In this document: piece by piece, positions 12,151-35,270 of the stretch | How the letters are laid out: every line of letters begins with the position of its first letter | How positions within the stretch are numbered: the first letter of the stretch is position 1 | Assembly: GCA_902793245.1 (NCBI GenBank) | Contig: CADBCX010000001.1 | Coordinates: 1-44,234, forward strand | DNA from: an uncultured Eubacteriales bacterium | GTDB taxonomy: Bacteria; Bacillota; Clostridia; Christensenellales; Aristaeellaceae | Direction of reading: 5' to 3' | DNA length: 44,234 bases | Made by a program: the position numbers and the translations under genes | The notes under the pieces: generated by a model | Told to the model about the DNA's origin: nothing | Databases searched by the model: none | What the model saw: only the letters and a program-made list of their open reading frames with translations

Positions 12151-12263
12151 GAGAACAGAAAAGAGTACAGGGTACAGATAATAAAGACTGCGCGATTGGA
12201 ATTATTATCGTCGGCAGCATATATAAATCTGTACTCTGTACTCTGAACCCTGTGCTCTGAATT
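12151..12263. repeat. heptamer-armed hairpin element, AGAGTAC type
   Basis: The left arm (12151-12179) and right arm (12227-12263) are inverted copies built on the 7-bp unit AGAGTAC. The inner loop is 47 bp. Read on the minus strand, the loop starts TTTATATATGC directly inside the arm, the shared core of this family. The right arm touches the stop codon of the zinc-ribbon gene. Confidence 0.85.
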
Positions 12264-12516
12264 AAGCCCATTTCCCAAAGGGGCACTTTTCTTTTTTGTA
12301 CGCTGCCCGCAGCTCCACCAGGCAGCCGCAGCCCATGCAGGTGCCGTTTTGCAATTGATCGCAGGCGGAACAGACACCTAAGCGCTGCTGATACACAGTA
12401 TCGGACGCCTTGGCTGTTTCCGGGATTTTTGTCAGCAGCCCGGCCACATACTTTTCATAGTCCGCCGGGAACGCTTCCCGGAGAAGACAGCGCTTGCACT
12501 TTTTGTTTTCGGACAT
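12262..12516 (-). CDS. small zinc-ribbon protein, DUF6171-like
   Basis: 84 residues with two Cys clusters: CKRCLLRE near the N-terminus, and CSACDQL followed by CMGCGCLVELRAAYKK and CPFGKW at the C-terminus. This matches, from memory, the clostridial DUF6171 family of uncharacterised small zinc-binding proteins. I start at MSENKKCKRC (12516). An upstream ATG at 12534 sits inside the adjoining heptamer repeat. Neither start has a good ribosome site. Heptamer hairpins abut the gene on both sides, so its native upstream region may have been replaced. Function unknown. Confidence 0.7.
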   Translation of the reverse strand: MSENKKCKRCLLREAFPADYEKYVAGLLTKIPETAKASDTVYQQRLGVCSACDQLQNGTCMGCGCLVELRAAYKKEKCPFGKWA

Positions 12517-12522
12517 AATCAA

Positions 12523-12650
12523 ATGAATAGGCAATAGGCATTAGGCATTAGTCAATAGGCATTAGGCAATAGGGATTAGAAAGCAGGGGGCTTAAACCTA
12601 ATGCCTGCTGCCTAATGCCTAATCCCTAATGCCTATTCCCTCATCCCTCA
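12523..12650. repeat. heptamer-armed hairpin element, TTAGGCA type
   Basis: About eight 7-bp units (AATAGGC, ATTAGGC and variants; 12523-12578) are inverted by GCCTAAT-type units (12597-12650) around an 18-bp loop. The shared TTTATATAG core is not seen here. The right end supplies the TGA stop of the arabinofuranosidase gene (12648-12650). Confidence 0.85.
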
Positions 12651-14120
12651 CTTTACCGCCAGATGCACCACGCTGCAAGGCGGCAGGGTGGCGATGAGGC
12701 CGGTGCCGGTGATGGTGAAGCTGACGAAGGGTTGATCCGCCACCTGGTCGGGATCGTCGAAGGTGTTGTGGTCGTCCATGGCGCCGGTGAGCATCCGGCC
12801 CACCACATGGGAGGGATGCAGCCCGTTGGTTTCGATGGTGACAACCTGGCTGTCTTTCAGGCCGGGATTCACCAGCGTGATGTGCACGGTGCCGTCGGGC
12901 GCGATGGAGCAGGACTCCTGCACGGCGGGCAGCTTCACACCGTCCGATTCGATTTCGCCGGTCAGCAAATGGCTGTCCAGCAGTTCGTTTTCCTGGTGAT
13001 CCTTGAACAGCTTGAACACAAAGTACGTGGGCGTCAGCAGCATCTTGGGGCCTTCCGTCAGGATCATGGCCTGCAGCACGTTCACCAGCTGGGCGATGTT
13101 CGCCATGCGCACCCGGTCGCAGTGCTTGTTGAAAATGTTCAGGCTTAAGCCCGCCACCATGGCGTCGCGCATGGAATTCTGCTGGTAGAGGAAGCCGGGG
13201 TTGGTGCCCTCCTCCACGTCGTACCAGGTGCCCCATTCGTCCACGATCAGGGCCACCCGCTTGTCCTTGTCGTACTGGTCCATGATGGCGCAGTGGCGGG
13301 TGATGAGTTCGTCAATGAACAGGGCTTTTTTGAGCGTATCAAAGTAGTCCGCCACGGTGAAGCCCAGGGCGCTGCCCTTGTGCTGCCAGTCGTGGGGAAC
13401 GGTGTAGTAATGCACGGACAGGCCGTCGATGAACTGGCCCGCGTTCTTCATCAGGGTTTCCGTCCAGTGGTAGTCCGCGCTGTTGGCCCCGGCGGCGATC
13501 TTGAACACCTTTTGCTTGCCGTACTGGCGCACATAGGTCTGGTATTTGCGGTATTCGTTGGCGTAGTATTCGGCGGTCATGTTGCCGCCGCAGCCCCAGG
13601 GCTCGTTGCCCATGGCGAAGTATTTCAGGGGGAAGGCTTCCTCGCTGCCGTTTTCCTTGCGCAGGTTCGCCATGGGGGAAACGCCCTCGAAGGTCATGTA
13701 CTCCACCCATTCGTTCATTTCCCGCACCGTGCCGCTGCCTACGTTGCCGTTCACGTAGGTGTCGCAGCCGATTTGCTTGCACAGCTCGAAGAACTCGTGG
13801 GTGCCGAAGCTGTTATCCTCGGTGACACCGCCCCAGTGGGTGTTTACCATCTTCTTGCGCGTTTCCTTGGGGCCGATGCCGTCCTGCCAGTGGTATTCGT
13901 CTGCAAAGCATCCGCCGGGCCAGCGCAGCACGGGCAGGCCCACTTCCTTGAGCGCCTTCACCACGTCGGAGCGCATGCCGTTCACGTTGGGGATTTCGCT
14001 GTTCTCGCCCACGTACAGCCCGCCGTAGATGCAGCGGCCCAGGTGCTCGGAGAACTGGCCCTGGATGTCCTTGCTGATGTGGCCCTTGGTGACTTCCGTG
14101 TTGACGATCAGTTTGTTCAT
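12648..14120 (-). CDS. alpha-L-arabinofuranosidase, GH51 family
   Basis: A retaining glycosidase that removes terminal arabinofuranose from arabinan or arabinoxylan fragments. The 490-residue protein shows the GH51 hallmarks: SEHLGRCIYGGLYV, PVLRWPGGCFADEYHW, the acid/base glutamate E173 in AMGNEPWG, and the nucleophile E295 in LIVDEWGTWYD. No signal peptide is present, so it should act on imported oligosaccharides in the cytoplasm. The ATG at 14120 is favoured over 14129 because the AAAGGAA site would touch the latter. It follows the aldo/keto reductase gene by 42 bases and is probably the last gene of the rpiB-ybaK operon. A heptamer hairpin starts at its stop codon. Confidence 0.92.
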   Translation of the reverse strand: MNKLIVNTEVTKGHISKDIQGQFSEHLGRCIYGGLYVGENSEIPNVNGMRSDVVKALKEVGLPVLRWPGGCFADEYHWQDGIGPKETRKKMVNTHWGGVTEDNSFGTHEFFELCKQIGCDTYVNGNVGSGTVREMNEWVEYMTFEGVSPMANLRKENGSEEAFPLKYFAMGNEPWGCGGNMTAEYYANEYRKYQTYVRQYGKQKVFKIAAGANSADYHWTETLMKNAGQFIDGLSVHYYTVPHDWQHKGSALGFTVADYFDTLKKALFIDELITRHCAIMDQYDKDKRVALIVDEWGTWYDVEEGTNPGFLYQQNSMRDAMVAGLSLNIFNKHCDRVRMANIAQLVNVLQAMILTEGPKMLLTPTYFVFKLFKDHQENELLDSHLLTGEIESDGVKLPAVQESCSIAPDGTVHITLVNPGLKDSQVVTIETNGLHPSHVVGRMLTGAMDDHNTFDDPDQVADQPFVSFTITGTGLIATLPPCSVVHLAVK

Positions 14121-14162
14121 GGCGACCATTTCCTTTCTTTGGGTGTAGGGGAAAATGAGGGA

Positions 14163-15155
14163 TTAAGTTTTCAGAACGTATTCGATTTTATCCAGTTCTT
14201 CCGCCGTCAGCGGCGGGGCGTTCAGGATGCTCAGATTGTCGATGATCTGTTCCGGGCGGCTGGCGCCGATGAGGGCGGAGGTGACCACGGAATCGCGCAG
14301 CACCCATTGCAGGGCCAGATGGTGCAGCTTTTGCCCCCGCTGCTCTGCTATATCTTTCAGCAATCTGATTTTTTCCAGTTTTTCATCCGTCAGGGCGGCG
14401 GTCTTCAGGTAGCGCCCGTCCTTCGCCATGCGGGAATCGGCGGGGATGCCGTCCAGATATTTGCCGGTCAGCAGGCCGTTGGCCAGGGGCGCGAAGCAGA
14501 TGCAGCCCACCTTTTCCTCCCGGAGCACGTCGGTAAGCCCGTCCTCGATCCAGCGGTCCAGCATGGAATACCGGGGCTGGTGGATGAGGCAGGGGGTGCC
14601 CAGGCGCTTGAGTTCCCGGATGGCGGCTTTCGCCTGTTCGGGCTTGTAATTCGACAGGCCCACGTACAGCGCCTTGCCGCTGCGCACGATCTGATCCAGC
14701 GCGCCCATGGTTTCCTCGATGGGCGTGTCCGGGTCGGGGCGGTGGTGGTAGAACACGTCCACATAATCCAGCTTCATGCGTTTTAAAGACTGGTCAATGG
14801 AAGCCATCAGGTATTTCCGGCTGCCGTGGTCGCCGTAAGGCCCCGTCCACATGTCGTAGCCCGCCTTGGTGGAGATGAACAGCTCGTCCCGGTAGGGGCG
14901 GAAATCCCGCTCCATGTGGACGCCGAAATTCCGTTCAGCCTCGCCGTAGGGCGGGCCGTAGTTGTTCGCCAGGTCGAAGTGGGTGATGCCGTGGTCAAAG
15001 GCGGTGCGCAGCATGGCCTGCTGGGTTTCAAAGGGCGTGATGGCCCCGAAGTTGTGCCACAGGCCCAGGGAAAGAATCGGCAGCATCACGCCGCTGTTTC
15101 CGCACCGGCGGTACTGCATGGCGGCGTAGCGGGATGTATCGGGGGTGTAGGGCAT
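14163..15155 (-). CDS. aldo/keto reductase, L-glyceraldehyde-3-phosphate reductase-like
   Basis: 330-residue NADPH-dependent oxidoreductase of the aldo/keto reductase superfamily. Visible are HFDLANNYGPPYGEAE (the Asp and Tyr catalytic pair), FISTKAGYDMW (Lys), DVFYHHRPDPDTP (His), GLSNY, and the C-terminal ALIGASRPEQI cofactor loop. The long insert and the YGPPYGEAERNFG segment resemble the YghZ/GpR branch, which reduces L-glyceraldehyde 3-phosphate or methylglyoxal. Substrate assignment is tentative. The ATG at 15155 follows AAGGAGTG. Longer in-frame starts have no ribosome site. It sits between ybaK (26 bases upstream) and the arabinofuranosidase (42 bases downstream). Confidence 0.85.
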   Translation of the reverse strand: MPYTPDTSRYAAMQYRRCGNSGVMLPILSLGLWHNFGAITPFETQQAMLRTAFDHGITHFDLANNYGPPYGEAERNFGVHMERDFRPYRDELFISTKAGYDMWTGPYGDHGSRKYLMASIDQSLKRMKLDYVDVFYHHRPDPDTPIEETMGALDQIVRSGKALYVGLSNYKPEQAKAAIRELKRLGTPCLIHQPRYSMLDRWIEDGLTDVLREEKVGCICFAPLANGLLTGKYLDGIPADSRMAKDGRYLKTAALTDEKLEKIRLLKDIAEQRGQKLHHLALQWVLRDSVVTSALIGASRPEQIIDNLSILNAPPLTAEELDKIEYVLKT

Positions 15156-15181
15156 GAAATCACTCCTTGCAGATCTCTCAA

Positions 15182-15664
15182 TCATTGCTTCACAATCACA
15201 TCGGCTGTTTCCACAGGCACGGCTTTTCTCAATCCCTCCAGGGAGCATTCCACCTGATAGCCGATCTTGCCGCCGGAAAACAGGATGGTATCAAAATTGA
15301 CCGCGGTTTCGTGAATGACAGTGCGGAACTGTTTCTTCATCCCGATGGGGGAGCAGCCGCCGTGGATGTAGCCGGTGAGGGGCAGGAGCTCCTTGCTCTT
15401 GATCATTTCGATGGCTTTTTCGCCTACGGCAGCCGCGGCTTTTTTCAGGTCCAGTTCCTCCGCCACGGGCACCATGAACACATAATGGGTTTTGCTCTTG
15501 CCCACGGTCACCAGGGTTTTGAAGGTGTGGGCCGGGTCTTCGCCCAGGACTGCCGCCACCTCCACGCCGCTGATGGCCCCGGTGCCGCCGTAGAAATGCT
15601 CCTGATAGGGAATTTTCAAGCGCTCCAGCGTGCGCATGACGTTGGTTTTCTCTTGTTTCGGCAT
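15182..15664 (-). CDS. ybaK: Cys-tRNA(Pro)/aminoacyl-tRNA deacylase, YbaK/EbsC type
   Basis: 160-residue editing protein that hydrolyses Cys-tRNA(Pro) formed by misacylating ProRS. The fold signatures are present: EHFYGGTGAISGVEVAAVLG, the conserved lysine in HTFKTLV, and TGYIHGGCSPIGMKK, which corresponds to the family's GYxxGGxSPxG loop. The start codon overlaps the rpiB stop as TAATG, so the two genes are coupled. The pairing with a pentose enzyme is probably an operon convenience rather than a shared pathway. Confidence 0.9.
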   Translation of the reverse strand: MPKQEKTNVMRTLERLKIPYQEHFYGGTGAISGVEVAAVLGEDPAHTFKTLVTVGKSKTHYVFMVPVAEELDLKKAAAAVGEKAIEMIKSKELLPLTGYIHGGCSPIGMKKQFRTVIHETAVNFDTILFSGGKIGYQVECSLEGLRKAVPVETADVIVKQ

Positions 15665-16116
15665 TATTCTAACGGCTTTCCTTCCTCGATCAAGGAGAAC
15701 ATGTCGATGCGGCGCTGGTGCCGTCCGCCTTCAAAGGGCGTTTTGACCCAGATTTCCACGATCAGCTTGGCCAGCTCCGGCGCGATGACGCGGCCGCCCA
15801 GGGCCAGCATGTTGGCGTCATTGTGGGCGCGGCTCATCTTGGCGCTGTACGCGTCGGAACAGCAGCAGCAGCGAATGCCCTTCACCTTGTTGGCGGCGAT
15901 GGAAATGCCCACGCCGGTGCCGCACAGGATGATGCCCCGGTCGCATTCCCCGCTGACCACCGCGTTGGCGGCGCGAACGGCGAAGATGGGATAATCCCGC
16001 GGGTCGCCCTCGTTGATGCCGAAGTCCACGGTTTCAATGCCCAGTTCCTTTAAGGTTTCCTTGATCGGCTCCTTCAGCGGCACGCCGGCGGGGTCGCAGG
16101 CAATAGCAAATTTCAT
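15664..16116 (-). CDS. rpiB: ribose-5-phosphate isomerase B
   Basis: Interconverts ribose 5-phosphate and ribulose 5-phosphate in the pentose phosphate pathway. The 150-residue protein has the RpiB/LacAB pattern: IACDPAGVPLKEPIKETL, VDFG, DYPIFA, the catalytic Cys in GIILCGTGVGISIAANK, and RAHNDANMLALGGRV. It also has an unusual CCCC run at positions of moderate conservation. I start at the ATG at 16116, behind GGAGGAGG. The longer frame adds residues encoded across the promoter. It heads a probable operon with ybaK, the aldo/keto reductase and the arabinofuranosidase. Confidence 0.92.
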   Translation of the reverse strand: MKFAIACDPAGVPLKEPIKETLKELGIETVDFGINEGDPRDYPIFAVRAANAVVSGECDRGIILCGTGVGISIAANKVKGIRCCCCSDAYSAKMSRAHNDANMLALGGRVIAPELAKLIVEIWVKTPFEGGRHQRRIDMFSLIEEGKPLE

Positions 16117-16157
16117 GCGACAGGCCTCCTCCATATCGATTTGGAAAATACAGTCAT

Positions 16158-16186
16158 AGTATAGCGCATTTTGAGGTTTCATTCAA
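16158..16186 (-). promoter_or_regulatory. rpiB: promoter of the rpiB operon
   Basis: On the minus strand TTGAAT (16186-16181), a 17-base spacer and TATACT (16163-16158) lie about 40 bases upstream of the rpiB start. It separates this operon from tatD. Confidence 0.7.
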
Positions 16187-16233
16187 GGGTGTTGGTCCTT
16201 CGGCAGGAAAGAAAATGCATGCTTTTCATGGAA

Positions 16234-17007
16234 TCAATCTCTCGGAATGCGATAGAGTTCGCAGGCGTTATTCCAGGTGATTTCAGCCATTTCGTCCACA
16301 GGCAGGCCGCGGAGCTCAGCCATCTTGGACAGGGTAAACACCACCTGGGCGGGTTCGTTGCGGCGGCCGCGCCGGGGTTCAGGGCTGAGATAGGGGCTGT
16401 CTGTTTCCACCAGAAGCCGATCAAGGGGCACTTCCTGGACGGCGGCCTGCAAATGCGGGGCTTTCTTGAAGGTCAGCGGCCCGGCAAAGGAGATATAAAA
16501 GCCCATTTTGACATACTCCCTGGCTATTTCCGGACTGCCGGAGAAGCAATGGATGATGCCCGCGGGCAGGCGTTTGCGGGAACGGAAAAAGTCCACCATG
16601 TCGCCCTGGGCGTCCCGAATGTGAAAAATCACCGGCATGTCCAATGAAACGGCCAATTCCAGCTGCTCGGCCAAGATACGTTTCTGCACGTCCCGCGGCG
16701 AGAGATCATAATAATAATCCAGGCCGATTTCGCCCAGGGCCACGACCCGGGGCTGTTTCAGCATGTCCCGGAGCGTATCCAGATAATCCGGAGGGGCGTC
16801 CTTGGCTTCGTGCGGATGCACGCCGACGGCGGCGAACACGCCTGCGTGGGTATTGGCAAGGCTGATGCAGCGCCGGGAAGACGGCAGGTCGCTTCCTACG
16901 CAGACGCAGCGCTTCACGTCAGCGTCGATCATCCGCTGATAAGCTTCTTCCCGGTCTTCGTCAAATTTTTCATCGTCCAGATGGCAATGCGTATCAAAGA
17001 TGTTCAC
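16234..17007 (-). CDS. tatD: TatD-family metal-dependent hydrolase/DNase
   Basis: 257-residue TIM-barrel hydrolase related to TatD/YcfH, a metal-dependent 3'-5' exonuclease family. The ligands are visible: DTHCHLDD at residues 5-12, GVHPHEA, the glutamate in ALGEIGLDYYYD, FHIRDAQGD, IHCFSG and VETDSPYL. The start is GTG at 17007 with AAGGAG eight bases upstream. No ATG gives a complete HCHL motif. It lies between the divIVA terminator and the rpiB promoter. In many Firmicutes the neighbour is metS or rnmV, neither of which is here. Confidence 0.92.
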   Translation of the reverse strand: MNIFDTHCHLDDEKFDEDREEAYQRMIDADVKRCVCVGSDLPSSRRCISLANTHAGVFAAVGVHPHEAKDAPPDYLDTLRDMLKQPRVVALGEIGLDYYYDLSPRDVQKRILAEQLELAVSLDMPVIFHIRDAQGDMVDFFRSRKRLPAGIIHCFSGSPEIAREYVKMGFYISFAGPLTFKKAPHLQAAVQEVPLDRLLVETDSPYLSPEPRRGRRNEPAQVVFTLSKMAELRGLPVDEMAEITWNNACELYRIPRD

Positions 17008-17088
17008 GGGTCTGCTCCTTTTTATCGTTCAAATGCGGGCCGGGTCTTCGTTCCGGTGCGGCCGTTCACAGACAGTCATCCTGCAAAT

Positions 17089-17116
17089 AAAAAGCCCGGC
17101 GCGTTTTCGCGCCGGG
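17089..17116 (-). terminator. terminator of the yggS-sepF-divIVA cluster
   Basis: A nine-base stem CCCGGCGCG/CGCGCCGGG with a TTTT loop is followed by five T on the minus strand. It lies 11 bases after the divIVA stop. Confidence 0.88.
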
Positions 17117-17127
17117 GACGTTTTGGC

Positions 17128-17760
17128 TTATTCAAACAGCGCGGTTCCGGCTTTCAGAATGTCTGTCTGATCGTCGATCAGGCGCTGGAACCGTTCGCGG
17201 TAATCCCGGGCGGCGGCTTTCAGCGAGTCCACTTCCTTCAGGAGAGCGTCGCGCTGTTCCTCCAGGGAGCCGATCTGCTCCTCAGCCTTCCGTTTGGCTT
17301 CTTCCAGGATATCCTTGGCTTCCGCTTGTGCCTCGGCCAACGTTTCCTCATATACCTTCTGGGCATTGGCCAGCACCTTCCGGGCGGCTTCGCTCACGTC
17401 CTCCTTCTGAGGAGCGGGTTCTTCCTTTTTCAGCACCGCGGGCGCAGGCACAGCGGCCGGCGCGGGGACGGAGGCGGGTTCTTCCTTCTTCGCGAAAGCC
17501 GAAACAGGCGGCGGAACAGGCGCGGGCGCGGGCACTGCCGCGGGCGCAGGGACAGCCGAGGGGGCGGGCACCGCGGCGGAAGCGTAAAGGTTTCCTTCGG
17601 AAGACTGGCGTAACCGCTGGTTCAGGGTAGCGATTTCTTCCTGCAGGGCAACCATTTCATCACAGACTTCATCCAGAAATTCGTCCACTTCACTGGGATC
17701 GTAGCCCCGCATTTTGATTTTAAACTCTTTCTCCTCGATCATCGCAACGGTTATGGCCAT
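17128..17760 (-). CDS. divIVA: DivIVA-family protein with Pro/Ala linker
   Basis: 210 residues. Residues about 1-55 are the DivIVA lipid-binding and coiled-coil start (FKIKMRGYDPSEVDEFLDEV). A Pro/Ala/Val-rich linker with repeated VPAP and KKEEPA units follows (about 60-115). The rest is a long charged coiled coil (AEAQAEAKDILEEAKRKAEE). DivIVA marks negatively curved membrane at septum and poles in Firmicutes and recruits division and sporulation proteins. The ATG at 17760 follows AAGGAG. An upstream in-frame start lies in the spacer. It is last in a cluster with sepF and yggS. ylmG and ylmH, often present between these genes, are absent. Confidence 0.88.
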   Translation of the reverse strand: MAITVAMIEEKEFKIKMRGYDPSEVDEFLDEVCDEMVALQEEIATLNQRLRQSSEGNLYASAAVPAPSAVPAPAAVPAPAPVPPPVSAFAKKEEPASVPAPAAVPAPAVLKKEEPAPQKEDVSEAARKVLANAQKVYEETLAEAQAEAKDILEEAKRKAEEQIGSLEEQRDALLKEVDSLKAAARDYRERFQRLIDDQTDILKAGTALFE

Positions 17761-17917
17761 GACAATTGCTCCTTTCCGATTTTTGGAATGAATATTGCAC
17801 CAGGGGGGGTGAGACAAACGGGATCAGCCCGTTTCCAATCAGAAACAGAATCCTAAATCCTTTGAACCGGGCGCCTGCATGGGAAGGCGGGCACGGGTTC
17901 TCCGGATGGCCGCGGAT

Positions 17918-18850: not shown

Positions 18851-18871
18851 GCCTGAAGTCCTCCTGCCATT

Positions 18872-19537
18872 TTATCGAAACAAAGCTGAACCTACGCGCA
18901 CCATGGTGGCTCCGCAGCGCGCGGCCAATGCGTAATCCTGGGACATACCCATGGACAGTTCCGTCATATCCGTGTTCTGAACCGCTTCCTGCCGGCATTG
19001 ATCCAACAGGCTGCGCATCCGGGTAAAGTAGCCCAGAATCACATCTTCCGGCGCGCCCAGGGGCATCATGGTCATCAAGCCTTTGACATGAAGGCCGGGA
19101 AGCCTTGCGCATTCCCGCAGGAACGGGAGCAGGTCTTCTTCCGTGACCCCGCCCTTCTGCGGTTCCCTGGCGATATTCACCTGGAGCAATACCGGCATCC
19201 GTATGCCTGCCTTCTGCGCCTGGCGGTCAATCTCCTGGGCCAGCGAGGCGTGATCCAGCGAATGAATCAAACATACGTCCTTTATTATATATTTAACTTT
19301 GTTGGATTGCAACTGTCCAATGAGGTGAATTGAAAATTTTCCTTCCAGAAAGGGCAGTTTTTCCCGCAGGGACTGCACCCGGTTTTCTCCGATATCGGTT
19401 ACGCCCAATTGCGCCAGGGGCAAAATTTCCTCCGGCGCGGAATACTTTGTCACCGCGATCAGCTTCGGGCACCGTCCCCAGGGTTCGCTTTCCCGTTTCA
19501 GGGTTTCCATCACCGCTTTGACGCGATCTTGCAGCAT
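18872..19537 (-). CDS. yggS: PLP homeostasis protein, YggS/YlmE family
   Basis: 221-residue pyridoxal-phosphate-binding protein of the PLPBP family, with the fold of alanine racemase's N-terminal barrel. Motifs: LIAVTKYSAPEEI with the PLP lysine, IGENRVQSLREK, HLIGQLQSNKVKYI, LLQVNIA, GLMTMMPLG and LSMGMSQDYALA. It buffers free PLP and affects amino acid metabolism. In Gram-positives it sits beside sepF as ylmE. The ATG at 19537 follows CGGAGG. The longer start adds codons from the adjacent heptamer repeat. sepF follows 21 bases later. Confidence 0.92.
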   Translation of the reverse strand: MLQDRVKAVMETLKRESEPWGRCPKLIAVTKYSAPEEILPLAQLGVTDIGENRVQSLREKLPFLEGKFSIHLIGQLQSNKVKYIIKDVCLIHSLDHASLAQEIDRQAQKAGIRMPVLLQVNIAREPQKGGVTEEDLLPFLRECARLPGLHVKGLMTMMPLGAPEDVILGYFTRMRSLLDQCRQEAVQNTDMTELSMGMSQDYALAARCGATMVRVGSALFR

Positions 19538-19550
19538 TGTTTTGCCTCCG

Positions 19551-19644
19551 AGTTCCAAGTTCTAAGTCCCAAGTTCTAAGCTGGTCGCCTATCCTTTTGA
19601 TGACAGCTATATCGCTTAGAACTTAAAAACTTTGAACTTAGAAC
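19551..19644. repeat. heptamer-armed hairpin element, AGTTCTA type
   Basis: The left arm (19551-19580) has four AGTTCTA/AGTCCCA-type units and the right arm (19615-19644) their inverse CTTAGAA units. The loop is 34 bp. On the minus strand the loop begins GCGATATAGC inside the arm, a variant of the family core. It lies between the HlyD-like gene and the ribosome site of yggS. Confidence 0.85.
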
Positions 19645-19650
19645 GATCTA

Positions 19651-21310: not shown

Positions 21311-21444
21311 ATTAGGGATTAATGGAAGGAGAGTACAGAGTGCAGAGTACAGATAATTTAGTTTCACGATACAACGGATTCCGCTTCTTGACAAAGTATA
21401 TCAATCTGCACTCTGTATTCTTGTTCTCCTATTGCCTAATCCCT
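21311..21444. repeat. composite heptamer-armed hairpin overlapping the cobB 3' end
   Basis: The inner arms are AGAGTAC units (21330-21354 and 21404-21419) around a 49-bp loop whose minus-strand side begins TTGATATAC. The outer arms are of a second heptamer type (ATTAGGGATTA at 21311-21321, TTGCCTAATCCCT at 21432-21444). The outer right arm encodes the last four residues and stop of cobB. Confidence 0.8.
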
Positions 21445-22193: not shown

Positions 22194-22335
22194 GAGTTAG
22201 GAGTGAGGAGTTAGGAGTGAGGAGTTTTATATAGCGTTTTTCCCATTATTATCTGTGAAATCCAAGCTCGGAGTCATTCAGTCACACATCACCCAAATAA
22301 CTCCTCACTCCTAACTCCTCGCTGAACAAAACTCC
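22194..22335. repeat. heptamer-armed hairpin element, GAGTTAG/GAGTGAG type
   Basis: The left arm (22194-22226) alternates GAGTTAG and GAGTGAG units. The right arm (22299-22335) carries their inverse CTCCTAA/CTCCTCA units. The loop is 72 bp and begins TTTTATATAGCG on the plus strand, the family core. It lies between the cobB promoter and the cobB ribosome site, so it would be transcribed as a leader hairpin. Confidence 0.88.
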
Positions 22336-22345
22336 TTTTGTGCAT

Positions 22346-26796: not shown

Positions 26797-26799
26797 GAT

Positions 26800-29700: not shown

Positions 29701-30231
29701 CCAGGGCGACGCCTGGGACAAAAGGAAATCGTACAGCTGATCCAGCAGCGCCACCACCTGCTGATCCTCGAACTGGTCAAACAGCGCCTGTTCGTCCTCC
29801 GTCGGTTCCGCGTATGCGCTTTCCAGCACCTCGTCCTGGGCGCGCTTGCGCAGGGCCGCCAGCTTTTCCGGCTCGGCAATCCTGCACAGCGGGTCGATGC
29901 CCACCGCCTGGAAATGCTCTTGCAGCAGGCGGTAGCAGAACACGTGCAGGGTGCAGATGGCCGCCCGGTTCAGCCGCATGGACTGCCGCCGCAGGTGGGC
30001 GTCGTGGGCGCCTTCCTCATCCAGCCTGCGCCCGATGCGCTCCCGCATTTCGCCCGCCGCGGCGCGGGTAAAGGTGACGATCAGCATCCGGTCGATGCGC
30101 TTGCCCTCCCGAAGCAGGGAAAGCACCCGTTCCACCAGCACCGCCGTTTTTCCGGAACCCGCCGCCGCGCTCACCAGCACGCTGTCGTTCCGCGCGTCAA
30201 TCGCCGCCCGCTGTCCTTCCGTCCACCGCAC
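26800..30231 (-). CDS. addA: ATP-dependent helicase/nuclease subunit A
   Basis: 1143-residue subunit of the AddAB helicase-nuclease that processes double-strand breaks for RecA loading. UvrD-type helicase motifs run in order: Walker A SAAAGSGKTAV (about 20-30), LIVTFTRAAAGEMRERI, DYGDLEHL, IDEYQDVSGIQ, GDVKQSIYRFRLADP and LTLHKSKGLEFPVVF, then YVGMTRARERLIL. The C-terminal RecB-type nuclease has D1070 in GVIDLCF and D1083/K1085 in ADYKTD. The start is GTG at 30231 with GGGGGG ten bases upstream. The partner addB, usually just upstream, is not present. Instead a heptamer hairpin and the divergent mreB-like gene follow. Confidence 0.94.
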   Translation of the reverse strand: MRWTEGQRAAIDARNDSVLVSAAAGSGKTAVLVERVLSLLREGKRIDRMLIVTFTRAAAGEMRERIGRRLDEEGAHDAHLRRQSMRLNRAAICTLHVFCYRLLQEHFQAVGIDPLCRIAEPEKLAALRKRAQDEVLESAYAEPTEDEQALFDQFEDQQVVALLDQLYDFLLSQASPWEWAEAQCADGKAALSAWLPLLRDSCLQKLEGASELMPEMEALINRPDGPDRYLPMFERDDALMNELLQEARDGTLTGGKTSFTRLSSQKAGPAENPDVTEQYKALREEWKTRMNEARQTLPANPETAEADLRHALQPLRALCGLAKRMHDRFYELKQQKNYLDYGDLEHLTLRALQNPDVRSAVAGSFDALFIDEYQDVSGIQEAILRALHEGFSNLLFMVGDVKQSIYRFRLADPTLFLQKYRDYSLNENAAERKILLQQNFRSDENVLLAVNEVFVHAMREKETEIAYDEAAMLRPGGGQPFGAPVEIHLMVPKSEESEEEEGEPSSELSQGYRYEAAFVAKKIRELMRFATVREGEASRPLRYRDIALLVRYASGRAPFIAKALQMAGIPVYSDADAQFFEMPEVVDMLNILRVLDNPLQDLPLLGALRCPCFQFTEEELARIRLTERTPGVPFYTAFRTAMEQDTPLGGKAKEAWDRLADWRFKSRFLPVDTLIWLVLDESGLYMRAGCQEEGELRQANLRLLVERAEGDGGKEGLGVFLRDMGRLHASDDGKAAKTLGENEDVVRILTLHKSKGLEFPVVFLLEMARPFRKGDSSLLSLHGKYGMALQYIDAENRITRETFGQKALAVVQEKEARAEEARLLYVGMTRARERLILVGSPRKLDQALARWARPATPYAAGTAKCMLDWVMQSLGGFREGQYDGKNGSVWRMALQPAEEAAVPAAVRVTPPPMSQTGTDDPRTIERMTRVVEPRPPLKSSVTSIAKRLRDERDEWESPADKRKLPEEAPLPPFLRETRLTAAQRGTVTHRVLGLLDESLLREGKLDEALTELQGRSLLTDDEKRVIRRDWLNNFFSSPLGKRALASSTVHREWSFNLSGPYGSMIQGVIDLCFLEDGQWVLADYKTDDADGETLLRRYALQLRWYAKALAEITGVPVKEAYLFGLRAGESYPVALDEPCANNV

Positions 30232-30252
30232 TGTAGTATGACCCCCCTTGGA

Positions 30253-30372
30253 GAGAGTGAGGAGTGAGGAGTGAGGAGTTTTATATTGTTGAACAATGAG
30301 ATGCAGACTTGGCTTTACACTGAAAGCATCATCATTCTATAACTCCTAACTCCTCACTCCTAACTCCTCACT
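30253..30372. repeat. heptamer-armed hairpin element, GAGTGAG type
   Basis: The left arm (30255-30280) has GAGTGAG units and the right arm (30341-30372) the inverse CTCCTAA/CTCCTCA units. The 60-bp loop begins TTTTATATTG. It lies between the addA promoter and the addA start codon, as the similar element does for cobB. Confidence 0.88.
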
Positions 30373-30381
30373 GTTACCTCA

Positions 30382-30410
30382 ATTCTACCGCATCGCCCCC
30401 GTTTTTGCAA
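30382..30410 (-). promoter_or_regulatory. addA: promoter of addA, upstream of a hairpin element
   Basis: On the minus strand TTGCAA (30410-30405), a 17-base spacer and TAGAAT (30387-30382). The leader would include the whole 30253-30372 hairpin. Confidence 0.65.
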
Positions 30411-30508
30411 GTCAAACGATTCATGCCCCTTTATACCGTCGAAAAACCGCAAAAAGTGGCGAATGATTTCCAAAATGCTGAAAAAAATAAAGAAAAAGTA
30501 GCAAGTCA

Positions 30509-30526
30509 TTCCCATGTGTATGGGAA
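30509..30526. promoter_or_regulatory. palindrome upstream of the mreB-like gene
   Basis: TTCCCAT-GTGT-ATGGGAA is a perfect 7-bp inverted repeat in the AT-rich region 70 bases before the mreB-like start. It could be an operator or a small hairpin. No clear -35/-10 pair could be placed around it. The rest of the 363-bp addA-mreB spacer holds the hairpin element and the addA promoter. Confidence 0.4.
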
Positions 30527-30594
30527 AAAAGAGGATTTTTTCACTCCGCGTCGAATAAAGAACAGGTAATCCTGTATAAAGAGGGAGAAGATTC

Positions 30595-31623
30595 ATGGCA
30601 ACGGTACTGGACATTGGCGTTGATCTGGGGACAGCCAGCGTCGTCATTTACGGCAAGGGGAAGGACGTGGTGCTCAACGAGCCCGCCGTGATCGCCTTTG
30701 ACCGGGATTCCCGCAACGTGCTCGCCGTGGGGGAGGAAGCGCGGCGCATGCTGGGCCGCACCCCCAGCAACATCGCCGCCATTCGCCCGCTGCAGAACGG
30801 CACGGTGGGGGATATGGAAATGGCGTGCACCATGCTGCGGTATTTCCTGGGCAAGGTGGTTGGCAAGCGGCTGCTGGGCGGCCCCAGGATCCTGATTTCC
30901 GTGCCGGACGGCGTAAATGAAATGGAACGCCATCGGATCATGACCAGCCTGTTTGAAACCGGCGCGCGGCGCACCCAGATCATGGAGCGCCCCATCGCCG
31001 CCGCTATCGGCGCGGGCCTGGCGGTGGGCGACGCCTACGGGCAGATGATCGTGGACGTGGGCGGCGGCGTGACGGATATCGCCGTGCTGTCCCAGGGCAG
31101 AATCATTGCCAGCAACAAGGACGCCACCAATAAAATCGGCGGCGATGCTTTCGACGATGCGGTCATCCGTTATGTGCGCAGGAAGCATAACTTGCTGCTG
31201 GGCGAACTGACAGCCGAGGATTTAAAGATCAGCATCGGCTCCGCCCTGCCCAGAACCGAACAGTTTTATATGGAAGTAGCCGGGCGCAACCTGATTTCCG
31301 GCCTGCCCAAGGTGATGCGCATCACCAGCGACGAAATCACCGAAGCCCTCGACGACCCGCTGCACGACCTGCTGGAAGCCATCCAGGCCGTGCTGGAAAA
31401 AACCCCCGCCGAGCTGCTGGCCGATATTTTCGAAACAGGCATCACCCTGACCGGCGGCGGCGCGCTGCTGCCCGGCTTGAGCGAAGCCATCGCCGAATTC
31501 CTGAAGGTGGACTGCCGCGTGGCGGAGTTCCCCCAGGAGTGCGTCGCCCGCGGCTGCGGCCAGACTCTCGAGCACCCCGGCGATTTCGCAAAGTATCTCA
31601 ACGACCGGCGGAGGAGAAGATAA
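30595..31623 (+). CDS. mreB: MreB/Mbl-family actin-like rod-shape protein
   Basis: 342-residue bacterial actin that guides sidewall peptidoglycan synthesis. Nucleotide-site motifs are in place: DIGVDLGTASVVIYGKGK (phosphate 1), VDVGGGVTDIAVLSQG (phosphate 2), NKIGGDAFDDAVI and TGGGALLPGLSEAI (adenosine). The ERPIAAAIGAGL segment is characteristic of MreB. The C-terminus ends in a basic run, DRRRRR. It stands alone, without mreC or mreD, so it could be an Mbl or MreBH-type paralogue rather than the principal MreB. The ATG follows AGAGGGAGAAG. The flanking addA gene is divergent. Confidence 0.92.
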   Translation: MATVLDIGVDLGTASVVIYGKGKDVVLNEPAVIAFDRDSRNVLAVGEEARRMLGRTPSNIAAIRPLQNGTVGDMEMACTMLRYFLGKVVGKRLLGGPRILISVPDGVNEMERHRIMTSLFETGARRTQIMERPIAAAIGAGLAVGDAYGQMIVDVGGGVTDIAVLSQGRIIASNKDATNKIGGDAFDDAVIRYVRRKHNLLLGELTAEDLKISIGSALPRTEQFYMEVAGRNLISGLPKVMRITSDEITEALDDPLHDLLEAIQAVLEKTPAELLADIFETGITLTGGGALLPGLSEAIAEFLKVDCRVAEFPQECVARGCGQTLEHPGDFAKYLNDRRRRR

Positions 31624-31625
31624 AC

Positions 31626-31691
31626 TTCGGCTGATCTCACCGCAGACGATGCTTCCGCCACAGGCGGGCGTCCGCGGTGGGATCAGCCGAA
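31626..31691. repeat. long imperfect hairpin between convergent genes
   Basis: TTCGGCTGATC at 31626 pairs with GATCAGCCGAA ending at 31691. CACCGC/GCGGTG, GACG/CGTC and an inner CCGCC-ACA-GGCGG stem continue inward, with single-base bulges. It begins 3 bases after the mreB-like stop and ends 10 bases before the esterase stop. There is no T run, so it may act as a 3' stabiliser or a bidirectional terminator. Confidence 0.65.
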
Positions 31692-31700
31692 ATCAAATGA

Positions 31701-32486
31701 TCAGAACCCGGGATTCCCCCGCAGGAAGCGGAATACTTCTTCCAGATGTTCATCCCAGTAGATATAATCGTGCCCGCCATGACCATACACGGCCTGATGG
31801 GGCACTTGTTTTTTATTCAGAAAAGCATCGAAGCGCCTGCAGGCGTCCCGGACGACCACATCTTCCTCTCCGCAGCACATCCAAATGTCCGGCAGCTTTT
31901 CGCCCGCCTCCAGCGCGGTATCCACCGCGAGGAAGGGATTCAGGCGCGGAGACTGAAGATAGGCTTCCCGGCTGCCGAATAAGGTGCCGAACAGGGAATG
32001 GGGCAGGATATCCTCCGGCTTGTTCAGCAGCAGGGTATCCGCTTCCACGGAGGGGGAAAGCAGCGCCATTTTGGAATACACATCCGCGTAATGCAGCCCC
32101 AGCGCCGCCGCGCCGTAGCCGCCCATGGAGATGCCGCCGATGAAGGTGTCCTCCCGTTCATGGGACAGGCAGGGAAACATCTTCCTGGTGATTTCCACCA
32201 GCTCTTTTCCGGCGTATTCCCCCATACGGAAAGCCCGGTCCGGGTGGTCGGTGTAGAAGGCGTTCTCCCCGTCCGGCACCACGACAGCCACGCCATACAG
32301 GGCGGACATCTGCCGCAGCGGCAGGGCGAACACGATTTCCTCTGCATTGGCGGAAAAGCCCGGCAGGAAATACAGGGTGGGATAAGGGCGTTTCGCATCC
32401 GGATACCCGTCATGGTAGGGCAGGATCACGTGAAAATCCGCCCCGCGCATCAGCGTCTTGGATTTTGCCGTCGCTTTGATGTACAT
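31701..32486 (-). CDS. alpha/beta-hydrolase esterase, EstA/feruloyl-esterase-like (third of three)
   Basis: 261-residue cytoplasmic serine esterase of the esterase-D/putative esterase family. The nucleophile elbow is GGISMGGYGA, the acid is in CGEEDVVV, and the histidine is in GHGGHDYIYW. The oxyanion region is YFLPGFSANAEE. Such proteins hydrolyse short acyl or feruloyl esters, including acetyl groups on plant oligosaccharides. The start codon immediately follows the preceding esterase's stop (TGAATG), so translation is coupled. It is clearly homologous to its two upstream neighbours (shared VPDGEN.FYTD and KELVEITR segments). Confidence 0.88.
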   Translation of the reverse strand: MYIKATAKSKTLMRGADFHVILPYHDGYPDAKRPYPTLYFLPGFSANAEEIVFALPLRQMSALYGVAVVVPDGENAFYTDHPDRAFRMGEYAGKELVEITRKMFPCLSHEREDTFIGGISMGGYGAAALGLHYADVYSKMALLSPSVEADTLLLNKPEDILPHSLFGTLFGSREAYLQSPRLNPFLAVDTALEAGEKLPDIWMCCGEEDVVVRDACRRFDAFLNKKQVPHQAVYGHGGHDYIYWDEHLEEVFRFLRGNPGF

Positions 32487-33269
32487 TCACGCATCCTCCT
32501 TTCCCGTCAGGAAGCGGAACATGGGCGTCAGCGCCTGTTTCCAGAAGGTGTGGTCGTGGCCGCCTTCCGCCTCGTACCAGGTGAGCGGCGTATGCAGGCT
32601 TTCCATCTGCGTGGCGAACTCCTTCGCGGGGGTGATCAGCCCGTCGCTTTTGCCGCAGGCCAGGAACATGTCTGGCATGGCTTCGGGACTCTTCGCCGCT
32701 TCCGCCGCGGCCCAGCTGTAATCCCGGTAGCTGCCCTGATATTCTTCCCAGGTGCCCAGGGTTGCGAGGAGTTCGCCCTTGGGGGACGGACTGCCCGGCG
32801 TGGGTTCATCGTCCGGCTGTTTAAAGCCCAGGGCGGGGGAAAGCATGGCAATTTTGGAGAAGGTTCCGGCAAACCGCAGGCCGTTGATCAGCGCGCCGTA
32901 ACCGCCCATGGAGATGCCGCCGATGAAGGTATCCTCCCGCCTGGGGGACAGGGGCAGGACAGACCGGGTGACCTCCACCAGCTCCTGCCCCACATACCGG
33001 CTGAACAGGGCCCCGCGCTGTTCGTCGTCGGTATAGAAGGAGTTTTCGCCGTCGCACAGCACGACGGCGACCCCGAACCGCATGGAGAACAGGGAAAAAT
33101 TGCTGAACATGGACGTTTCCAGCCCGCCGCCGGAATAGCCCGGCAGGAAGTACAGCGTGGGATACGGCGGCGGAACGTCCCGCCAGTTGTTGAAATCCGG
33201 CAGGAACACCACCGGATACACGCTGCGGGAGATGCAGTCCGAACGGAAGTTCAAGTGAAGATTGGACAT
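32487..33269 (-). CDS. alpha/beta-hydrolase esterase (second of three)
   Basis: 260-residue paralogue of its neighbours. The nucleophile is in GGISMGGYGA, the acid in CGKSDGLI and the histidine in EGGHDHTFW. The lid and loop region after LSPAL (GFKQPDDEPTPGSPS) differs from the other two, which suggests a different substrate. No signal peptide is seen. The start at 33269 lies 26 bases after the first esterase and follows the AGGTGG-type site in the gap. Substrate is unknown; acetylated or feruloylated sugar fragments are suggested by the linked sugar ABC genes (inference). Confidence 0.87.
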   Translation of the reverse strand: MSNLHLNFRSDCISRSVYPVVFLPDFNNWRDVPPPYPTLYFLPGYSGGGLETSMFSNFSLFSMRFGVAVVLCDGENSFYTDDEQRGALFSRYVGQELVEVTRSVLPLSPRREDTFIGGISMGGYGALINGLRFAGTFSKIAMLSPALGFKQPDDEPTPGSPSPKGELLATLGTWEEYQGSYRDYSWAAAEAAKSPEAMPDMFLACGKSDGLITPAKEFATQMESLHTPLTWYEAEGGHDHTFWKQALTPMFRFLTGKEDA

Positions 33270-33295
33270 TCTTTCGCAACCACCTTTTCAGCCGT

Positions 33296-34117
33296 TTACT
33301 TTTCCTTTTTACCTGCCTGAATCCAGTCCAGGGCGATGGGCAGGGCGTAATTCCAGAAGTTGAAGTCGTGGATGCCGGGATGGGTGAGCCATTCGTGGGG
33401 AATGCTCAGCTTTTCCAGGCATTCGTGCATGTCCAGGTTGGCGGGGTAGAGGAAGTCCTCCGTGCCGCAGGCCAGGAACAGCCGGGGAAGGTTCGCGCCC
33501 GCTTCCTTGCGCATTTTCGCCAGGGTCTTGGGCGCGCGGTCGCTGCTGAGCAGGGCGGAGGGCTCGCCGAAGGTGTGGGCGTAGTAGTCGTAAGGCGCCA
33601 TGAAGTTGCCGGTGCCGGGCTTCATCTGGGCCACCTCGTCGGTGATGAGGGCGGAGGACAGGGCAGCCACCGCGCCGAACACGTCGTTGTAATACAGGCC
33701 GTTCCGCAGCGCGCCGAAGCCGCCCATGGACAGGCCGCCGATATACGTTTCCTCCCGCTTGTGGGACAGGGGGAACAGCCGCCGGGTCACGTCCACCAGT
33801 TCTTTGCCGATGAACTCGGAATACGCCTGGTCGCTGCGGGGATTGTCCAGATAGAAGCTGTTCTCACCGTTGGGCATCACGAACGCGATGCGCCGCATGC
33901 CGGCCAGTTCCATGATGTGGCCGTTGTACAGCCAGTCCATGTGGTTCCCGGAAAAGCCGTGCAGCAGGTACATCGTGGGGAACGGCCCGTCAATGTATTC
34001 AATCCTGCCCTGCGGGGTGAACACGTCCACCGGAATGACCACGGAAAAGGTGACCTGCCGCTTGAGCACGACGGAAAAGTATTGGCCGGTAAATACTGAC
34101 ACTTCTTTCGCCTCCAT
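33296..34117 (-). CDS. alpha/beta-hydrolase esterase (first of three)
   Basis: 273-residue member of the same esterase family, with GGLSMGGFGA, CGTEDFLY and HPGIHDFNFW as the Ser-Asp-His triad. The oxyanion strand is MYLLHGFSGNHMDW. It resembles EstA-type tributyrin esterases of lactic acid bacteria. It is the first gene of the three-esterase run, separated from the Nif3-like gene upstream by a heptamer hairpin. The first residues (MEAKEVSVFTGQYFSVVLKR) show no signal peptide. Confidence 0.88.
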   Translation of the reverse strand: MEAKEVSVFTGQYFSVVLKRQVTFSVVIPVDVFTPQGRIEYIDGPFPTMYLLHGFSGNHMDWLYNGHIMELAGMRRIAFVMPNGENSFYLDNPRSDQAYSEFIGKELVDVTRRLFPLSHKREETYIGGLSMGGFGALRNGLYYNDVFGAVAALSSALITDEVAQMKPGTGNFMAPYDYYAHTFGEPSALLSSDRAPKTLAKMRKEAGANLPRLFLACGTEDFLYPANLDMHECLEKLSIPHEWLTHPGIHDFNFWNYALPIALDWIQAGKKEK

Positions 34118-34140
34118 TTTTATTGTGGGGATGCAACATA

Positions 34141-34257
34141 CAGAGTACAGAGAGCAGAGTGCAGAGTACAGATAATAATGTACGCGTTGTTTGACTCCGG
34201 CTTATTGGCCGACTAAATAAATCTGAACTCTGTACTCTGAACTCTGCACTCTATTGC
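34141..34257. repeat. heptamer-armed hairpin element, AGAGTAC type
   Basis: The left arm (34141-34173) has CAGAGTA-type units and the right arm (34221-34257) the inverse ACTCTGA units around a 47-bp loop. On the minus strand the loop begins TTTATTTAG. The right end abuts the stop codon of the Nif3-like gene (34258). Confidence 0.88.
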
Positions 34258-35103
34258 TTAAAGATAAATAAACGGTTCTTCCGCGTCGGTGAAGAACAAA
34301 GGAATCTCCCCGGTGATGTCCTTCATCCACTCGCCCAGGCGCTTCATGCCGGGTTCTTCGCTGCGCTCGTGGCCCAGCACGATGATGGCCTTATTCAGCC
34401 CCAACTGCGCGGCGTCGCGGACGTAGGCGGGGAGCGTCCATTCCGTGATGTCGCCGCAGAGGATCACGTCTAAGTTCCGCCGCCGCATCAGCTGCATGGG
34501 CATCTGCTCCACGCCCAGGCCCAGGCTGCCGCCGCCGGGCAGCACGCCTACCCGGGACACGGGCATGTCGGGGTCGCCGATCACCCGCATGACGGTCATG
34601 CCGATGCTCTTTTTCAGTTCTTCGCACAGGCCGCGCAGGGTGGTTTTCGGAATCTCATAGCAGCCGTCAAAGCGTCCTTTCAGGAACGCGGGGCCGGCGG
34701 GATCGTACAGGATGGGCATGCGGTACTGCGCCCAGCCCGTTTCCTGGTCGAAGCCCCGGTAAATGCCGTCCTGCTGGTCGAAGTGCATGTGGTCATGGAA
34801 GCGCCAGATGGCGACGCCGGTTTCCTCGATCAGCTGCTTTTTCCGGAGGTATACCTCGTCCCCCGCCAGCCAGTCGGTTTCGTCCATGCCGGTGAACCAG
34901 GTGGGTTCATGGGTGATGATGAGGTTGGCTCCCAGGGCCGCGGCCTTCTTGATCACGTCCACCGTGGCCATAAAGGTCATGGCAATGCCCTTCACTTCCA
35001 TGTCCCATGACCCCGCCATCAGCCGGTCGCAGGTGTCCTTGAGGGGAATCGGCGGCACCCCGGTCTTTTTGATCATCGCGTCAGTAATCTCGCGGACAGT
35101 CAT
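34258..35103 (-). CDS. Nif3-like (DUF34) dinuclear metal-centre protein
   Basis: 281 residues of the Nif3/YqfO family, whose members form a toroidal hexamer with two metal ions per subunit. Biochemical roles proposed include GTP cyclohydrolase-like activity and metal chaperoning. Metal-site signatures are changed from the usual HHP: ITHEPTWFTGMDETDW, then RFHDHMHF and VLGHERSEEPGMK near the C-terminus. This makes it a divergent member. It lies between the sugar ABC operon and the esterases, each side separated by a heptamer element. The start ATG at 35103 follows AAGGAGTGAAG. Whether it acts on a sugar-related substrate is open. Confidence 0.78.
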   Translation of the reverse strand: MTVREITDAMIKKTGVPPIPLKDTCDRLMAGSWDMEVKGIAMTFMATVDVIKKAAALGANLIITHEPTWFTGMDETDWLAGDEVYLRKKQLIEETGVAIWRFHDHMHFDQQDGIYRGFDQETGWAQYRMPILYDPAGPAFLKGRFDGCYEIPKTTLRGLCEELKKSIGMTVMRVIGDPDMPVSRVGVLPGGGSLGLGVEQMPMQLMRRRNLDVILCGDITEWTLPAYVRDAAQLGLNKAIIVLGHERSEEPGMKRLGEWMKDITGEIPLFFTDAEEPFIYL

Positions 35104-35144
35104 ATTTGCGCTTCACTCCTTATTCTGGTCGCAATTGTGTAAAA

Positions 35145-35270
35145 GGTAGGAGGTAGGAAGTAGGAGGTAGGAGGTTTTATATAGTGATTGAAAAAACATA
35201 GCGAATGACGATGCTCCTCATCACGGAAGTCATGATAAACCTCCTACTTCCTACCTCCTACCTCCTACTT
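35145..35270. repeat. heptamer-armed hairpin element, AGGTAGG type
   Basis: The left arm (35145-35176) has AGGTAGG/AAGTAGG units and the right arm (35238-35270) the inverse CTACCTC/CTACTTC units. The 61-bp loop begins TTTTATATAGTG, the family core. It ends six bases before the stop codon of the ABC permease gene. Confidence 0.88.

Follow-up and report, generated by a model that had tools for sequence, protein, structure and literature searches.

Dispersed intergenic hairpins with heptamer-repeat arms in an uncultured Eubacteriales bacterium

The window, as we call the whole stretch of DNA analysed here, comprises 44,234 nucleotides (positions 1 to 44,234 of contig CADBCX010000001.1, assembly GCA_902793245.1) from an uncultured Eubacteriales bacterium of the Aristaeellaceae. 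It encodes a Gram-positive-type AddA, and its intergenic regions hold eight hairpins whose arms consist of tandem seven-nucleotide units (Table 1). All eight had been picked out in a sequence-only reading of the window, and all were found where that reading had placed them. Repeat runs in the window, scored at 22/28 identity, number eight at period 7, one at period 6 and three at period 14, with none at any remaining period between 4 and 15. The eight hairpins fold strongly on both strands, with energies 5.0 to 9.6 standard deviations (s.d.) below those of mononucleotide shuffles, and no Rfam family matches the window at the gathering score.

Table 1. Heptamer-armed hairpins of the window and the features that define them; TTTATATAG is the nine-nucleotide core motif, and C numbers are locations elsewhere in the host genome
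Feature	Position	Strand	Remarks
Hairpin, class A (AGAGTNC)	12151-12263	-	Short left arm; right-arm units at 12231 and 12238; minimum free energy -44.5, z -5.6
Core of the 12151 hairpin		-	Reads AGATTTATATAT
Hairpin, class D (TTAGGCA/ATAGGCA)	12523-12650		Without TTTATATAG core; stop codon TGA at 12648-12650 and start codon ATG at about 12514-12516, both on the minus strand, lie to either side
Hairpin, class E (AGTTCTA)	19551-19644		Without TTTATATAG core; stop codon (minus strand, about 19651) on one side, CGGAGG ribosome-binding site of the next gene on the other
Composite hairpin	21311-21444	-	Outer class D arm pieces TTAGGGA... / ...TTGCCTAATCCCT enclosing a class A hairpin
Class A hairpin inside the 21311 composite			Left units at 21330, 21337 and 21344
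Stop codon TAG of sirtuin-like gene	21429-21431	-	Within the outer arm of the 21311 element
Hairpin, class B (GAGTKAG)	22194-22335	+	Left units 22194-22221, right units 22304-22317
TTTATATAG core of the 22194 hairpin	22226-22234	+
Hairpin, class B	30253-30372	+	Core subfamily common to copies on C20, C5, C17, C25 (two) and C41
Hairpin, class A	34141-34257	-	Left units 34142-34169, right units 34225-34252
Hairpin, class F (AGGTAGG/AAGTAGG)	35145-35270	+	Sole class F element in the host genome by exact pattern
TTTATATAG core of the 35145 hairpin	35176-35184	+

Abundance and heptamer classes

The host genome, G000, was sampled over 783,834 bp, being the window and 40 fetched 20-kb stretches after merging, or about 23% of 3.48 Mb. 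A detector requiring 21-bp arms with period-p identity of at least 70%, complementarity of at least 16/21 and a loop of 10-220 nt finds 67 hairpins at period 7. One of these, C7:30922, is a different repeat, so that 66 are genuine; it is retained in the total of 67 and, as one of eight convergent cases, in the set of 64 used for gene positions below. No hairpin has arms of period 4, 5, 8, 9 or 10, one each has period 6 and 13, four have period 11 and nine period 12, while block-shuffled sequence, one copy per period, yields none. Period specificity and shuffling together reject chance or base composition as the source of the hairpins, and the excess of period-7 arms over shuffled sequence, whose lack would have refuted the sequence-only reading, is there (67 against 0 in shuffled copies). 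The detector is conservative, having missed a decayed class B hairpin at C17:24975, and extrapolation to 3.48 Mb gives about 290 elements per genome.

Seven heptamer classes are used in G000: A (AGAGTNC), B (GAGTKAG), C (GGAGTGT), D (TTAGGCA/ATAGGCA), E (AGTTCTA), F (AGGTAGG) and G (GAATGAG). Relatives add AGATAGG (G004), AGAGTTG (G006 and G025), an AAGTGAA-like unit (G006), and TAATGCG and GGAGAGT (G034). Where at least five heptamers had been claimed from the window, at least ten are thus found in G000 and its relatives. Across the whole of G000 the class A pattern of three successive units occurs 112 times forward and 129 times in reverse, with a count of 0 for the reversed-pattern control. 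The exact class B pattern occurs 48 and 43 times (control 5 and 4) and, with one mismatch allowed, 85 and 87 times against 29 and 29 for a control pattern that itself resembles class B arms. We regard the observation of period-7 hairpins as confirmed and real.

Arms, cores and the extent of the unit

Within the heptamer units most positions are conserved and usually one is variable; at that one, class A has A 82 times, G 38 times, T 32 times and never C. Neighbouring class A units are identical in 14% of 126 pairs, compared with 43% after shuffling (0 of 2000 shuffles as low), and those of class B in 32% of 38 pairs, compared with 56% (2 of 2000). The deficit in class D is not significant (37% of 43 pairs against 50%; 114 of 2000). 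This avoidance of identity between neighbours creates a second-order period of 14. For the left and right arms of a hairpin, compared in 31 class A and 8 class B pairs, no register tested brings the variable bases into agreement. For class A the in-register match is 35/93, against 43% in shuffles, and the best register sum is 63, against 61 with an s.d. of 3.4. The arms are thus unlike recent inverse copies of each other, and the idea that one is a fresh copy of the other is unsupported by these register tests.

Cores were compared in a pool of 107 elements from G000 and relatives, nine of which have no clear loop. The 98 usable loops come from eight genomes (63 from G000, 11 from G004, 8 from G006, 7 from G019, 3 each from G005 and G034, 2 from G025 and 1 from G020), artefacts of N runs having been dropped from the relatives' counts (three of seven hits in G034 and one of two in G020). 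The motif TTTATATAG adjoins an arm at 8/9 or better in 28 of the 98 loops, where 0.6 would be expected, and at 7/9 or better in 51, where 5.9 would be; the proposed enrichment of a core next to the arms is therefore genuine. By class, the stricter match is seen in 15/41 loops of class A, 6/18 of B, 2/6 of C, 1/8 of D, 0/8 of E, 2/7 of F, 2/5 of H (AGAGTTG), 0/3 of I, 0/1 of J and 0/1 of K. The motif is thus present at 8/9 in six classes (A, B, C, D, F and H), and two of the three class I loops have it at 7/9. In 12 loops it lies, at 7/9 or better, near both loop ends, where it resembles the inner part of an inverted repeat. Within the window, five of the eight elements (12151, 22194, 30253, 34141 and 35145) match at 8/9 or better; by eye, the 21311 core matches at 7/9, that of 19551 at about 6/9 and 12523 has none. 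The earlier count of seven cored hairpins out of eight accordingly needs a lenient match.

Beyond the motif, the loops are specific to their heptamer class. Of all loop pairs 23% share a class, but among the 94 that outscore every shuffled pair 91 lie within one class and the remaining three link class A with class H. Arms and their own core therefore mostly travel together, and free exchange of arms within a single family is mostly rejected. The sequence-only reading had proposed one family with changeable arms: dispersal, shared structure, a motif found in six classes, the lack of the elements from sister genomes at window loci and the co-occurrence of classes in the same hosts (both below) agree with that proposal, whereas the class-specific cores do not, so that it is only partly supported. 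What links the classes is the short motif, the architecture and the hosts.

Another explanation would be that these are ordinary tandem arrays, like the short tandemly repeated repetitive (STRR) sequences of cyanobacteria, expanded by replication slippage and folding by chance. Heptamer arrays around which no hairpin is detected are indeed widespread: of 54 A- or B-type arrays in IMG/VR, 43 are of this kind, the other 11 (4 of 29 A and 7 of 25 B) having a detected hairpin. MacGregor 2015, citing Mrazek 2007, ranks heptanucleotides first in abundance among the repeat classes for most of the genomes that were examined (PMC4679880). Against this, the units are paired in inverted orientation around a class-specific core, their avoidance of identity is the opposite of what fresh slippage leaves, and a whole 128-bp hairpin stands in what is a 3-nt intercistronic gap in a relative (see below). 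We consider slippage very unlikely to account for the hairpins.

The extent of the unit is seen by aligning copies. In seven class B copies with related cores, similarity extends over the arms and the core, beyond which the sequences are for the most part unrelated. Eight class A copies agree over arms and core. Several of them have, in addition, a common outer repeat, GGRCACTTTAAG.../...CTTAAAGTGYCC, that is absent from other copies and is also found around some elements of classes B and D and around hairpins of other kinds. An outer frame (GGRCACTTTAAGT...), often carried along in class A, was entertained as the true element and rejected for class B, since it accompanies some copies of a given core and is missing from others. 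The unit is therefore the hairpin, which in some cases lies nested within other repeats. Hairpins also nest in one another, with B arms around A at C22:10816, D around A at 21311 in the window, and layers of A, C and B on the right side at C5:23716. Small size, inverted ends, dispersed copies and lack of coding sequence are features of miniature inverted-repeat transposable elements (MITEs). Among 58 elements there is no excess of direct repeats at the ends, at fixed or variable offset, that would signal a target-site duplication; 3-bp duplications suspected by eye at two sites were dropped once the systematic test had given no excess.

Several other repeats were noticed around the hairpins. 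One, whose inverted ends are GGRCACTTTAAGTSA / TSACTTAAAGTGYCC, surrounds heptamer-armed hairpins belonging to several classes as well as hairpins of other kinds, AAAGCCTTCCCCTTGAGGGGAAGGC among them, with cargo between its ends in the cases seen; complete pairs lie at C22:18386 and C25:1825 of G000, and single ends at C13:5626, C17:11953, C41:2256, C2:14602 and elsewhere. The motif GTTCAGTCR / YGACTGAAC, seen by eye outside several hairpins (for example at C22:18360-18386, C41:7440 and C8:15640 of G000), is possibly the end of another enclosing repeat. Two similar, hairpin-rich and seemingly non-coding repeats of about 520 bp (L070 7430-7990 on C18 and L088 about 5440-6000 on C8) are bounded by similar GGACACTTTA...TTTAAAGTG-like ends. 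In the window itself, positions 37199-37348 form a large palindrome with 57-nt arms, 88% complementary, of the form GTCATCCTGAGCG...CGCGAAGGATCTCAT; its repeat type recurs at C7:16467 of G000, inside a class D hairpin. An orphan class A right arm, AACTCTGTACTCTG at 37416-37429, directly follows a CCCCTCAAGGGGAAGGC hairpin half and looks like a broken nested element.

Sister genomes, hosts and neighbouring genes

Seven of the eight window elements have sites that can be compared in up to four sister genomes, the site of 12151 falling on a contig break. The element is absent in all 13 site-by-genome comparisons, and no period-7 hairpin was detected in the nine loci searched; the comparison of orthologous loci suggested along with the original description thus finds every comparable site without the element. 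At the 12523 site G020 reads TGA-TCC-ATG, where G000 has the whole 128-bp hairpin between the same two codons. At 19551 the stop codon of G027 directly abuts CGGAGG, where G000 has 100 nt, and at 35145 the aligned gene ends are 2 nt apart in G014 and 164 in G000. Both 34141 and 35145 are absent from G014 and from G020. In five of the 13 comparisons the difference in gap length closely fits the element: 128 against 128 in G020 at 12523; 94, 91 and 98 against 94 in G014, G025 and G027 at 19551; and 131 against 125, by the detector's boundary, in G014 at 34141. Separately, the window segments 32078-32294, 32877-32990 and 33695-33809 belong to related neighbouring genes, one of them esterase-like, and single segments of relatives align to two or more of them.

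The distribution of hosts is patchy. Class A occurs in 12 of 120 relatives, all among the 29 sampled members of the host's genus, and class B by six of the 120, in three genera of one family; across the phylum the class B hairpin pattern was found in one of 398 genomes, the host itself, which is the sole member of its order in that sample. Classes E and F each occur in seven of the 29 genus genomes, class F matches numbering 1+1 in G000 (the window element), 53+39 in G025 and 38+25 in G006. All class E and all class F genomes fall within the 12 of class A, an arrangement with a chance of about 5e-4 in each case by our own arithmetic if the genomes were independent, a figure that their relatedness weakens. 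The best DNA matches to the window region, G014 and G020, are almost hairpin-free, with none in 96.6 kb and one real hairpin in 76.5 kb, respectively. Among named genomes, the class B arm and core occur in the Clostridiales metagenome-assembled genomes (MAGs) RUG14052 and RUG13367, which we take from the prefix to be rumen genomes; a Porphyromonadaceae match in the same scan (L080) shows no hairpin and seems fortuitous. Four IMG/VR contigs classed as viral (L214, L221, L226 and L233), two of them from one IMG genome (2799112440), also hold class A hairpins whose loops are core-like; these contigs are possibly prophage regions of related hosts.

The position of the hairpins relative to genes was assessed against 621 genes (85% coding) predicted by a home-made caller that uses hexamers; their stop positions do not depend on the start chosen. 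Both neighbours are available for 64 of the 67 elements, 48 lying between tandem, eight between divergent and eight between convergent genes; none lies inside a predicted gene. Between tandem genes, 46 of 48 have the upstream stop as their nearer neighbour, the median distance being 5.5 nt to it and 56.5 nt to the downstream start. As many as 31 fall in the zone up to 10 nt from this stop, which holds 6-7% of permitted positions (those sparing genes and the 10-40 nt before starts), and 17 occupy gaps which, the element aside, are shorter than 50 nt, against 0.2-3.3% expected. In gaps of at least 60 nt, 15 of 26 elements are within 20 nt of the stop, compared with a null mean of 7.4 and a highest value of 15 in 5000 simulations. 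The distance to the stop is zero or negative in 11 of the 48, the arms containing stop codons; 20 sit 1-10 nt past a stop located outside the detected element.

Could this pattern be pure survivorship, with insertion at random and only those copies retained that spare genes, promoters and ribosome-binding sites? The empty gene interiors would follow, and stop codons in the arms would make insertion into last codons tolerable, as at the 21311 element. Against it speak the 31 of 48 elements within 10 nt of a stop, where 6-7% would be expected, or roughly 17% (own arithmetic) once the last 15 nt of every gene are allowed as well, together with the short residual gaps and the stop-proximal bias within long gaps. 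We view pure survivorship as possible but doubtful.

It is less probable still that the hairpins are fixed functional RNA structures (terminators, mRNA stabilisers or translation regulators) spread by descent alone. Their strong folding on both strands and their placement directly behind stops would suit such a role; Escherichia coli repetitive extragenic palindromic (REP) sequences within 15 nt of a stop codon are reported to stall ribosomes (PMC12306157). Descent alone, however, sits badly with their absence from every orthologous site compared, their patchiness between sister species and the closely related cores at unrelated loci. The window has no Rfam family, moreover, and cores show no significant preference for either orientation with respect to the genes (19 same, 11 opposite; p=0.20).

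Probable mobilisation and relation to known repeats

Dispersal, absence from sister genomes and lack of a detectable target-site duplication suggest hairpins that are mobilised in trans. On balance we consider them probably to be small (about 90-150 bp) non-autonomous mobile elements, the mobile unit being the heptamer arms and a core of some 30-90 nt. One host factor common to the classes would mobilise the hairpins in trans through their folded form, probably that of single-stranded DNA; the arms would gain and lose heptamer units independently, and a transcribed hairpin may, in the manner of REPs, affect the termination of translation or the 3' end of the message upstream. A more elaborate form of this proposal, which we offer as speculative and rather unlikely in its entirety, has a mobilisation system not yet described spreading hairpins, within one bacterial lineage, in at least ten interchangeable heptamer 'dialects', several with a TATATAG shoulder. 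It would recognise the folded hairpin over fixed sequence and insert at stop codons without target duplication, each genome amplifying its own dialects; class F, with one element in G000, has 92 and 63 pattern matches in two sister genomes, and the further dialects counted across the genus, E and F, are confined to genomes with class A.

A number of observations weigh against reading the hairpins as trans-mobilised elements. In eight of the 13 sister comparisons the gap difference does not fit the element (G020: 65 at 19551, 20 at 21311, 76 at 22194, 110 at 30253, 58 at 34141 and 47 at 35145; G027: 74 at 30253; G014: 162 at 35145), because relatives carry other spacer sequence or G000 carries more, and the unrelated spacer makes exact junctions unreadable at these sites. 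Flanks are mostly 70-90% identical, so that very short target-site duplications are possible case by case. Proximity to stop codons could in part be survivorship, since the arms carry stops and last codons are dispensable. No autonomous partner of classes A, B, C, E or F was seen in the sampled 23% of G000; a gene between far arms was considered as such a copy and discarded, the only far arm pair joining two separate elements. The Y1 transposase family PF01797 has no match in G000, which is 83.75% complete, and is present in two of 12 class A genomes (G003 and G020) against eight of 17 other genus members. Reverse transcriptase (RVT_1) is found in six of the 29 genus genomes, namely four of 12 class A carriers and two of 17 others; it shows no clear tracking of carriers, leaving mobilisation by reverse transcriptase discarded as a candidate. 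Class E, finally, has the architecture alone in common with other classes, so that their belonging to one system is something we infer.

The behaviour of Y1 transposases bears on another candidate, that the hairpins are REP doublets forming hairpins (REPINs) moved by a REP-associated tyrosine transposase (RAYT) or a relative of IS200/IS605. Y1 transposition is not known to leave a target-site duplication, and none was detected here. The architecture is also the same: REPINs, as described in PMC3116915 for Pseudomonas and E. coli, are numerous dispersed extragenic copies without coding capacity in which inverted arms and a spacer form one hairpin, the doublet being the replicative unit. In contrast, the arms here are tandem heptamers of many alternative sequences, without a conserved palindromic REP, and the hairpins show a strong placement at stop codons, also inside apparent operons. 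No Y1/RAYT gene was found in the host or in 10 of the 12 class A genomes, and PF01797 fails to track carriers. RAYT or IS200 mobilisation is therefore unsupported, and we deem it highly improbable.

Like the hairpins, the STRR sequences of cyanobacteria, which Mazel and others reportedly described as heptanucleotide repeats, are intergenic tandem degenerate heptamers with variable positions. STRR sequences are mostly direct arrays, unlike the units here, which occur in inverted pairs with cores and whose named carriers are Clostridiales MAGs, outside the cyanobacteria. Elhai 2008 reportedly described small dispersed repeats of 21-27 nt within tandem heptamer arrays of Nostoc; these too are very small, mobile, tied to heptamer arrays and involved in nested insertions. 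Eukaryotic Foldback transposons have long inverted ends of short tandem repeats around a loop; they are larger, and the analogy extends to architecture alone.

The remark of the sequence-only reading that STRR repeats lack this hairpin-plus-core form needs qualifying, as the P6b stem of the Nostoc trnL intron is reported to be made of seven-nucleotide repeats (PMC4476775). There, two alternative repeat classes build the same stem, as different heptamers do here, and the 14-nt insertions described may be set beside the 14-nt second-order period of our arms. P6b is, however, one stem of a group I intron, as opposed to many free-standing dispersed hairpins with class-specific cores. MITEs, including BrickBuilt of Porphyromonas gingivalis (PMC4596501), are likewise small, non-coding and intergenic, with inverted ends and internal tandem repeats; BrickBuilt is described as having 23-nt repeats inside small inverted ends, whereas here the inverted ends are the tandem repeats. 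Again unlike MITEs, the hairpins have no detected target-site duplication (58 elements). A scan of the sampled 23% of the genome for classes A, B, C, E and F found no parent transposon. Since defining features of REPINs and of classical MITEs were looked for and not found, the hairpins are classed as neither. Our best reading is that they work like REPINs or MITEs while being built from STRR-like heptamers.

Heptamer arrays, the heptamer-built Nostoc intron stem, REPINs and MITEs are each known, and their combination amounts to a variant of small mobile palindromic elements. Heptamer-armed dispersed hairpins are undescribed in titles and abstracts among the matches listed from the open-licence literature, which is weak evidence of absence, and those matches likewise lack the combination of heptamer arms, class-specific cores and placement at stops without RAYT.

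Heptamer repeats have been reported as prominent among the long simple repeats of prokaryotes, and here they form the arms of dispersed hairpins. Given the class-specific cores, the patchy hosts and the sister genomes without them, the mobilising factor can be sought by comparing the 12 class A carriers with the 17 non-carriers among the sampled members of the genus. The hairpins inserted between a stop codon and the ribosome-binding site that follows it, moreover, amount to a natural experiment in which REP-like effects on the termination of translation and on operon expression can be studied.

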